The position numbers and the translations under genes were made by a program. Positions 4,378 to 9,910 of a stretch of 20,206 nt of DNA are shown here, piece by piece; position 1 is the stretch's first letter, and the number at the start of each line of letters is the position of its first letter. Origin of the DNA: a virus. The stretch is taken from positions 1 through 20,206 of the IMG/VR virus record IMGVR_UViG_3300043429_000572; one strand, written 5' to 3'. The notes beneath the pieces were generated by a model, which saw only the letters and a list, made by a program, of their open reading frames with translations, did no database searches and was not told where the DNA came from.

Positions 4378-4569
4378 ATGAAACAGACAGCAGTAGAATG
4401 GTTAGTATCAAAAACCGAATTAAATTATTATTCAGATAGCGATACTCTTTTAGCAATTCAACAAGCCCTCGAAATGGAAAAGCAGCAGATAATAGAAGCT
4501 TGTAATTATGGAGATTTTGAAGAATTAGGAGAACAATACTACAATAAAACTTATAAGCCCTCTGCTTAG
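4378..4569 (+). CDS. TAVEWL-family small protein, paralogue 3 of 3
   Basis: 63 aa. It begins MKQTAVEWLVSKTEL and has ALEMEKQQIIEACNYGD and the C-terminal EQYYNKTYK. Compared with copies 1 and 2 it has two extra N-terminal residues and a shorter linker between helix and tail. It is the last gene before the tRNA-like region; its TAG stop lies inside a 14-base near-palindrome (4564-4577). Function unknown. Confidence 0.73.
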   Translation: MKQTAVEWLVSKTELNYYSDSDTLLAIQQALEMEKQQIIEACNYGDFEELGEQYYNKTYKPSA

Positions 4570-4801
4570 CGCTGAGCATGGATCGAAGATGATACGCCTA
4601 AGTATTCCAAATCGTATGTTGGCACTGTTAGCGTTCAGGGGATAATTTAAAAACGCATTTTAAAGAAACTTAACTTGTATGTGGTTCGAATCCACTCGTT
4701 TACTGAGGTTAGGGAAGTAGGTGTTCAAAAGTTCGAATCTTTTGGTCTTGTAAAAGAAATGGTAGACACGAACAGTATGACAGCTGGAAAGACAGCATTA
4801 T
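4570..4801 (+). other. Non-coding stretch holding fragments of tRNA-like arms
   Basis: No credible gene in about 230 bases. Two hairpins look like tRNA T-arms: GTGG-TTCGAAT-CCAC at 4681-4695, and CAAAAG-TTCGAAT-CTTTTG at 4726-4744. Both have the seven-base TTCGAAT loop typical of a TpsiC loop. A D-loop-like phrase AAATGGTAGACACG, usual in tRNA-Leu, is at 4757-4770, and a GCTG-GAAAGA-CAGC hairpin lies near 4782-4798. I could not join these into a complete cloverleaf. A near-palindrome covers 4564-4577, and ATACG/CGTAT arms lie within 4592-4618. Best reading: decayed or rearranged tRNA genes, or a family of tRNA-like RNA elements. Confidence 0.45.
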
Positions 4802-4920
4802 AGTCCTGTGGCGGAAGTAGACGCACTGAGGTCAAAGAATTTTGTACACAACTGAGGTATTGGAGGATATTGACTGTTGAACCAATACAATTACAGGTAT
4901 CAAATCCTGTCAGGACTACT
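4802..4920 (+). tRNA. tRNA-like element A (degenerate, Leu-like ends), no confident anticodon
   Basis: The 5' arm AGTCCTG (4802-4808) pairs perfectly with CAGGACT (4911-4917). A D-arm-like GCG-GAAGTAGA-CGC follows at once, resembling tRNA-Leu but lacking the usual GG of the D-loop. A T-arm-like hairpin ACAGG/CCTGT (4893-4910) has an eight-base loop TATCAAAT instead of TTCGAAT. The middle (4825-4892) holds GTATTGG/CCAATAC (4857-4888) with an 18-base loop, and no normal 5+7 anticodon arm. The total of about 116 bases is too long for a class II tRNA. A T-run follows the 3' end and CCA is not encoded. A tRNA relic, a tRNA with an insertion, or a tRNA-like regulatory RNA are all possible. Confidence 0.42.
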
Positions 4921-4947
4921 TTTTTTAACTTCAATACACACACAATG
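4903..4947 (+). repeat. Direct repeat: tRNA-like 3' end plus leader, copy 1
   Basis: Bases 4903-4934 are identical to 5195-5226 (32 bases: the end of the T-arm, the 3' acceptor, a T-run and AACTTCAA). The following leader ACACACACA differs at two positions from the second copy. In both copies the start codon of a small ORF lies exactly 11 bases after the identical block. Confidence 0.85.
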
Positions 4948-5100
4948 GAAGAAACAGCATTTGATTTACCAGAAACAACAAAGTTAGAAATTATTGAAAA
5001 AATTGAAGCATTAGCTTGGGAAATAAGAAATGATTGGAGTGACCCAAGAAATGAATGTAGAAAAATTGTAGAACTTTGTGAAAAATTAAAACAATTATAA
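4945..5100 (+). CDS. 51-aa helical protein in tRNA-like cassette A
   Basis: ATG at 4945 sits behind the repeated leader, exactly as the ATG at 5237 does in the second cassette. A longer frame from 4870 (TTG) would run through the T-arm and acceptor of the tRNA-like element, so I reject that start. The protein is acidic-to-neutral and helical (ETTKLEIIEKIEALAWEIRN, then CRKIVELCEKLKQL), with two Cys and no recognisable domain. It ends 7 bases before element B. It shares no sequence with the cassette B protein. Function unknown; cargo-like position between two tRNA-like elements. Confidence 0.6.
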   Translation: MEETAFDLPETTKLEIIEKIEALAWEIRNDWSDPRNECRKIVELCEKLKQL

Positions 5101-5106
5101 ATAAAA

Positions 5107-5211
5107 TGTCCTGTGGCGGAAGTAGACGCAAGGATAGTGACCCCTAAAACTATCAGTTAGCAACTAAACTGCAAGGTGAGGCATTACAGGTTCGAATCCT
5201 GTCAGGACTAC
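5107..5211 (+). tRNA. tRNA-like element B (class II-like layout), no confident anticodon
   Basis: Acceptor arm GTCCTG (5108-5113) pairs with CAGGAC (5203-5208). The D-arm-like GCG-GAAGTAGA-CGC is identical to element A. A canonical T-arm ACAGG-TTCGAAT-CCTGT lies at 5186-5202. Between them are hairpin GATAGT/ACTATC (5133-5154, ten-base loop), hairpin AGTTAG/CTAAACT (5155-5170, one bulge, loop CAA), and a weak TGC/GCA pair. This resembles acceptor, D, anticodon, long variable and T arms of tRNA-Leu/Ser, but the anticodon loop is three bases too long and the D-loop lacks GG. It is about 103 bases long. T-run after the 3' end, no encoded CCA. Confidence 0.48.
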
Positions 5212-5239
5212 TTTTTTTAACTTCAAAACAAACACAATG
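5195..5239 (+). repeat. Direct repeat: tRNA-like 3' end plus leader, copy 2
   Basis: Second copy of the 4903-4947 block, with 32 identical bases and the same 11-base spacing to an ATG (5237). Together with the 23-base identical 5' block (4803-4825 and 5108-5130) it frames two different RNA cores and two unrelated small ORFs. Confidence 0.85.
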
Positions 5240-5419
5240 ACAGAACTAACAATATCAATGGCAAAAGATATGGATTTTGTAGAGTGGGTGCAGCATTTTA
5301 GACCCGAATGGTCTGAAGATGAATGTGTGGATTATCTATGGGAGCATACTTGTTTTCCATTTGGTCTTAAAGAAACAATCAAACAACTAAATGAGCAGCT
5401 TTTAAACACAACACAATGA
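5237..5419 (+). CDS. 60-aa protein in tRNA-like cassette B, unknown function
   Basis: Starts behind the repeated AACTTCAA leader. The protein is acidic and rich in Trp and Phe (DMDFVEWVQHFRPEWSEDEC, then VDYLWEHT) with a helical C-terminus (KETIKQLNEQLL). The DFVEWVQHF...WSEDE part is a helix-turn-helix-like layout with conserved aromatics, but I recognise no family. The stop overlaps the start of the glucosaminidase (ATGA, 5416-5419), so this gene is coupled to the wall hydrolase rather than to cassette A. Confidence 0.62.
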   Translation: MTELTISMAKDMDFVEWVQHFRPEWSEDECVDYLWEHTCFPFGLKETIKQLNEQLLNTTQ

Positions 5420-9676: not shown

Positions 9677-9910
9677 TTATACAGCGTATTGAGCTAACCA
9701 AATATTTACCATATCGGGAATGTCGGCATCATCCCAAGTGTCAGTATAAGGCATATTTTCAGCACGTACACCGAACTCAGCGGAGGCAGTTGTAAGCAGT
9801 ACGTCAACACTTAAAAGTTTGTCAATTGCCTTATCTGAAATAGTATTAAGGTTTATGCTTATTGTAGGGTCTGTAATTTCTACTTGAAATTGTGGAAACT
9901 TGTATGTCAT
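9677..9910 (-). CDS. Small acidic protein, unknown function
   Basis: 77 aa, acidic, beta-rich N-terminus (KFPQFQVEITDPTISINLNT) then helices. Trp/Asp-rich C-terminus (DTWDDADIPDMVNIWLAQY). Placed between the lectin-like adsorption protein and the CPxC membrane protein, one base from the latter. It may be a small virion or fibre-assembly protein; not recognised. Confidence 0.65.
   Translation of the reverse strand: MTYKFPQFQVEITDPTISINLNTISDKAIDKLLSVDVLLTTASAEFGVRAENMPYTDTWDDADIPDMVNIWLAQYAV

Follow-up and report, generated by a model that had tools for sequence, protein, structure and literature searches.

Among the RNAs described so far, the bacterial Y RNA YrlA carries a tRNA-like module and tethers the Ro60 protein Rsr to PNPase. 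The ends of YrlA form a Ro-binding stem, and genes for this RNA have reportedly been found in phages. In biotechnology, foreign RNA is put into the anticodon arm of a tRNA scaffold for stability. YrlA displays D, T and acceptor-like arms and has a length of 90-150 nt (PMC8394870), and it has been proposed to act as a decoy against an anticodon nuclease (PMC7790460). The window considered here, i.e. the whole stretch of DNA that was analysed, is a virus record of 20,206 bases, encoding a DnaB N-terminal domain, a primase, SSB, an endolysin and holin-like genes. Two elements, A and B, sit upstream of the endolysin and have the anatomy of a tRNA minus the anticodon arm (Table 1). They are probably phage non-coding RNAs in which a tRNA-like scaffold holds exchangeable payloads. 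The structural part of this reading, a tRNA-like frame with exchangeable cores, can be put forward with high confidence from the sequences compared below; the payload mechanism has a little less than an even chance, and the payload idea itself is a guess from allelic exchange.

Anatomy of elements A and B

The frame common to both elements comprises a 7-bp acceptor stem, a D arm (GGCGGAAGTAGACGC), a T arm and A73. The sequence-only reading of this DNA had pointed to tRNA-like ends around different cores, and direct reading of the window bears this out: a 5' block of 23 nt (GTCCTGTGGCGGAAGTAGACGCA) and a 3' block of 32 nt (AATCCTGTCAGGACTACTTTTTTTAACTTCAA) are shared, and the cores, which replace the anticodon arm and the variable loop, are unrelated. 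The same spacing to the ATG recurs in both elements, and the 11 bases given for it by that reading become 10 nt when measured. The 7-bp acceptor stem with a T arm closing on it is present as in tRNA. The acceptor of element B has 6 of 7 pairs, the outermost one being a T-T mismatch; the element with the same core in the related record L274 has an A at the outermost position and thus 7 of 7 pairs. G18 and G19 are missing from the D loop of A and B, and GG is missing from that of 67 of the 83 non-canonical elements collected in total. The T-run and A-rich leader are taken to comprise the 3' end of the RNA and, for the gene that follows, an ordinary leader.

Table 1 Coordinates of the features read in the window
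Feature	Start	End	Strand	Description
Companion hairpin	4779	4797	+	GACAGCTGGAAAGACAGC; directly upstream of A; kept in L003, L004 and L149
Element A	4802	4918	+	Acceptor AGTCCTG (4802-4808)/CAGGACT (4911-4917); TG; D arm GCG-GAAGTAGA-CGC (4811-4824); T arm ACAGG-TATCAAAT-CCTGT (4893-4910); discriminator A4918
Core A	4825	4892	+	68 nt; hairpin GTATTGG/CCAATAC; possible pseudoknot GGTCAA/TTGACT (by eye)
T-run and A-rich leader after A	4919	4944	+	Outside the conserved frame of the family
51-aa ORF	4945	5100	+	Between A and B; optional insertion; no family match above cut-off
Element B	5107	5210	+	Acceptor TGTCCTG (5107-5113)/CAGGACT (5203-5209); D arm as in A (5116-5129); T arm ACAGG-TTCGAAT-CCTGT, 7-nt T loop (5186-5202); A5210
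Core B	5130	5185	+	56 nt; hairpins GATAGT/ACTATC and CAGTTAG/CTAAACTG (second by eye)
T-run and A-rich leader after B	5211	5236	+	
60-aa ORF B	5237	5419	+	Conserved small protein, in three relatives; independent of preceding core

An ordinary tRNA was discarded, as ARAGORN in standard mode called no tRNA in the window. Its intron mode returned one low-score Asp(atc) call, on B, which was rejected because the implied intron finds no support in the family. Rfam at its own cut-offs reported nothing in the window. The sequence-only reading had left room for a covariance search scoring both elements as ordinary tRNAs, which did not occur: with relaxed limits, the Rfam tRNA model (RF00005) gave 28.2 bits for B, versus a cut-off of 29, and did not list A. 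This cut-off is passed by two family members that have a GG-containing D loop, namely L162 605-739 (core of 84 nt) and L274 3712-3821 (element C, core of 60 nt); hence, the family shades into tRNA-like genes. A self-splicing intron was discarded too, as neither group I nor group II introns were matched among all Rfam families searched, and neither ARAGORN nor Rfam called a tmRNA in the window.

Several further features lie near the elements. Of the 83 elements, 12 are preceded, at a distance of at most about 40 nt, by a companion hairpin, which has a covarying stem and the loop GGAAAGAC (or GGAATTAGAC); it is carried by the window, L120, L038, L173, L168, L176, L212, L218, L229 and L110, several of which are unrelated phages, and its loop resembles the D loop of its own element. 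Positions 4680-4776 of the window contain two orphan T arms (GTGGTTCGAATCCAC and CAAAAGTTCGAATCTTTTG; 4686-4750) and a D-arm-like piece (AAATGGTAGACAC), without partners, which may be remnants of other cassettes. Conservation is also seen in a second RNA-like stretch at about 4531-4665, CCTCTGCTTAGCGCTGAGC...CAGGGGATAATT, which overlaps the upstream gene at its end and contains a hairpin whose loop varies. This stretch is 96% identical to L274 over 135 nt, versus 65-78% for the genes.

A family of tRNA-like elements in phages

The 18-mer TGTGGCGGAAGTAGACGC was retrieved from six stretches in IMG/VR, three of them relatives of the window phage and three unrelated to it. The unrelated carriers possess different acceptors, which still pair, and different cores. 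A looser D-arm scan of IMG/VR yielded further members. As the T loop of many members has the unusual length of 8 nt, a T-arm scan with GCAGGTATCRAATCCTG was chosen as well; it matched at least 120 stretches, with a chance expectation of about 10 if the collection is taken to hold some 40 billion bases (an estimated size). Fixed patterns with a 7-nt T loop recovered few members, since the loop of most members counts 8 nt.

Statistics were calculated on 98 distinct T-arm sites with an 8-nt loop among the matches listed. A 7-bp acceptor plus a D arm was found at 49 of these 98 sites and at none in 20 shuffled sets. The octamer TGGCGRAA occurred within 330 nt upstream of 51 of the 98 listed sites, with about 2 expected (about 0.02 per site), and 50 of these 51 octamer-bearing sites had at least six of the seven acceptor pairs, versus 10% (maximum 20%) when partners were re-dealt. 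In 41 distinct frames, all seven acceptor pairs changed on both sides, 97.9% of the acceptor cells were paired, and the acceptor covariation score amounted to 0.715, versus 0.165 for shuffled and at most 0.168 for slid frames. This covariation set was anchored on sequence and not on acceptor pairing, so that the count is not circular. On these family statistics, a chance origin of the predicted frame is excluded.

The family is spread over dozens of unrelated phages. Core length ranges from 20 to about 195 nt, with short forms of 20-22 nt. A D loop without GG goes with an 8-nt T loop: 59 elements without GG have a T loop of 8 nt and eight one of 7 nt, whereas the numbers are four and 12, respectively, for elements with GG. 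Of 81 elements outside the window, 17 are situated at most 400 nt from a tRNA, all on the same strand, some of them inside tRNA arrays. A tRNA or tRNA-like gene is nested within the core of the element in L046/L151 and L175, and apparently in the D loop in L221. In L178, L191, L216 and L266, the D loop contains a hairpin insertion of its own, and the surrounding GAAG...AGTAGACGC is kept. The 151-nt tRNA-like element of L204 (about 9730-9890) has a long core and a GG-containing, non-Leu D arm, which suggests that other frame types may exist.

BLAST of the element regions and of the whole window retrieved no named isolate with an element, and a scan of seven annotated phage records revealed none either. 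Of four matches in a collection of cellular genomes, one was convincing, on a contig of a Lachnospiraceae MAG, and three had no frame; none of 397 genomes from the family of this MAG contained an element. The tRNA-like gene at 5880-5946 of L124 (Lachnospiraceae MAG contig) has a 17-nt core and no anticodon stem. Rfam contains no model for the family, and no description of it was found in the part of the journal literature that was searched. Apparently, the family is uncatalogued; tRNA finders skip these genes.

Core exchange, conservation and rival explanations

The sequence-only reading had seen conserved borders around exchangeable contents, and this view is confirmed by the comparison of related phages. 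At the locus of the window, core A is present in L003, L004 and L149, cores B and C in L274, and cores A and B in the window itself; core C lies 224 nt beyond core B in the same AGTCCTG frame. Hence, one frame at one locus accommodates three cores. Elsewhere, unrelated cores are found between flanks of 92-98% identity. Between L184 and L211, the 1500 bp upstream of the element show 98.0% identity and the 611 bp downstream of it 97.7%; acceptor and T arm are the same, and the cores, of 97 and 72 nt, are unrelated. Similarly, L162, L263 and L268 have the frame and near flanks in common and cores of 97 (like L184), 136 and 52 nt, and L218 and L229 (acceptor AGCAAGG) are 92.7% identical upstream and contain unrelated cores of 57 and 74 nt. 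With these cases, the refuting condition attached to the sequence-only reading, that no other genome would show the blocks with different contents, is answered. Such exchange would most likely proceed via recombination through the short conserved blocks of the frame.

Individual cores are strongly conserved. Core A is unchanged over all 68 positions in four phages (the window, L003, L004 and L149), whereas the DNA of ORF B differs by 8-25%. Core B has one other occurrence, in L274 (3488-3592), with no changes over 56 positions relative to the window, at a gene identity of 65-78% between the two phages; the frame around it in L274 differs from that of the window in its D and T loops. Such identity across diverged phages could be explained by purifying selection or by recent exchange. 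Concerning core structure, the five related cores of L168, L176, L212, L229 and L233 include two (L176 and L233) with compensating changes in two hairpins, read by eye from the aligned sequences. A large structured core, GCGCAYCTGTAAGACAAGT...AAGGTGCG, with stems that covary by eye, is common to the unrelated phages L008 and L037. Overall, cores fold slightly better than shuffled sequence (mean z of -0.68), and core B alone folds no better than shuffled sequence, so that payload structure is weakly supported. An outer stem closing the core is not enriched. The slight difference in folding suggests that payloads may act by sequence, by pseudoknots invisible to the folding program, or by both. 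Antisense action on the phage's own genes was rejected, no target of core A or B being found in the window by complementarity: the longest complement to the genes of the window was 11 nt for core A, versus 10.3 nt expected, and 12 nt for core B, which is not convincing (p of about 0.07).

One rival explanation holds that the elements are interrupted or decaying tRNA(Leu) genes, the core being a small intron in the anticodon region or the debris of an insertion there. The tRNA order of the frame, the Leu-type D arm and A73 speak for it, as do the score of B just 0.8 bits below the Rfam tRNA cut-off, the GG-containing members that pass, the same-strand neighbourhood of tRNAs for 17 of 81 elements and the further orphan T arms in the window (4686-4750). 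It is nonetheless unlikely. An anticodon-like stem is not enriched in the cores (16 of 71, versus 13.2 +/- 3.6 expected), some cores are, with 20-22 nt, too small for an anticodon arm plus an intron, and no group I or II intron was matched among the Rfam families searched. Moreover, decaying pseudogenes could not explain the identity of cores A and B between widely diverged phages. A role as decoys, in which host nucleases or modification enzymes directed at tRNA are titrated by the tRNA-like frame, the core serving only to disable the anticodon, has a small probability as well. It fits phage elements that are tRNA-like in shape and lack an anticodon arm, and a similar role against an anticodon nuclease has been proposed for YrlA (PMC7790460), but it leaves the base-level conservation of individual cores and their exchange as units unexplained.

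The small ORFs bear on another alternative, namely a cis-acting leader in which the tRNA-like structure and the T-run control termination or translation of the following small ORF. Indeed, the window and its relatives have a T-run, a short leader and an ORF start about 26-35 nt after the element, and the sequence-only reading had counted the ORFs and leader as part of the module, or imagined a tRNA-like RNA acting on the message it precedes. Yet the following ORF changes and the core stays. Core A stands ahead of ORF B in L003 and L004; in L149, a different small ORF intervenes between the two; and in the window, the 51-aa ORF and element B separate core A from ORF B, the 51-aa ORF being missing at that place in the relatives read. 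In L274, core C directly precedes the endolysin, and L003 has another ORF between the companion hairpin and A. Judging from these gene orders, the small ORFs come and go independently of the elements and are not part of the module. Furthermore, a T-run follows only 14 of the 83 elements, and members occur inside tRNA arrays; together with the changing ORFs, this indicates that regulation of the message is not a general function, and the cis-acting leader is improbable. Kinship with the bacterial Y RNAs (YrlA), whose genes are said to occur in phages, is the least likely of these alternatives: the ends of YrlA make a Ro-binding stem, whereas the ends of the elements make an acceptor stem in 50 of the 51 octamer-bearing sites among the matches listed. 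D, T and acceptor-like arms and a length of 90-150 nt do favour it (PMC8394870). However, Rfam model RF02553 had no match in the window, nor in any element of 20 records at E up to 1, and the Ro60/Rsr partner (TROVE PF05731) is encoded by none of 36 carrier records; YrlA was rejected on these two negatives.

The preferred reading, a tRNA-like scaffold with exchangeable payloads, combines a constant and a variable part. The former consists of the acceptor stem, a Leu-type D arm, in most cases lacking GG, a T arm whose loop often counts 8 nt, and, mostly, A73; the latter is an RNA core in place of the anticodon arm and the variable loop. The frame probably acts as a natural tRNA scaffold, which routes the transcript to tRNA-processing enzymes of the host (RNase P and 3' nucleases) and protects the product. 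The core would be the active part. Its target is probably variable and belongs to host defence or to the competition among phages, since alleles swapped at a fixed locus are typical of genes in such conflicts. The elements may tentatively be considered a new class of phage RNA, in which a natural tRNA-like scaffold carries interchangeable RNA effectors whose alleles are swapped at fixed loci, like anti-defence or immunity genes but wholly as non-coding RNA. Should the cores be effectors, phages would possess an arsenal of modular RNAs that is exchanged no less freely than anti-defence genes. With the clean swap pairs, the selective force on each core can be addressed directly, and the altered D and T loops bear on how far the tRNA elbow can change and stay recognised.

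Comparison with known systems

With the tRNA(Leu) type (RF00005), the elements have in common the order of the parts, the 7-bp acceptor, T8, the Leu-type D arm, the T arm and, mostly, A73. They differ from it in the absence of an anticodon arm, a core of 20 to about 195 nt, a D loop that usually lacks GG and a T loop that often counts 8 nt, and A and B stay under the Rfam cut-off. YrlA (RF02553) is a stable non-coding RNA and resembles them in a tRNA-like module made up of D, T and acceptor arms (PMC8394870), but the elements do not match its model, have an acceptor stem at their ends and an exchangeable core, and reside in carrier phages without a Ro60 gene. As in tmRNA, tRNA-like ends enclose a long insert that replaces the anticodon arm; however, the elements are much shorter, are of Leu-type instead of Ala-type, received no tmRNA call from ARAGORN or Rfam in the window and have no identified tag frame. 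The stable RNAs C and D of phage T4 (species 1 and 2) are also small stable phage RNAs, and RNA C ends in the T arm CCGGGTTCGAATCCCGG; they were rejected as counterparts, as the T arm is in common but a matching D arm was not found in T4. Finally, the tRNA scaffold of biotechnology is man-made, whereas the arrangement proposed here would be natural.
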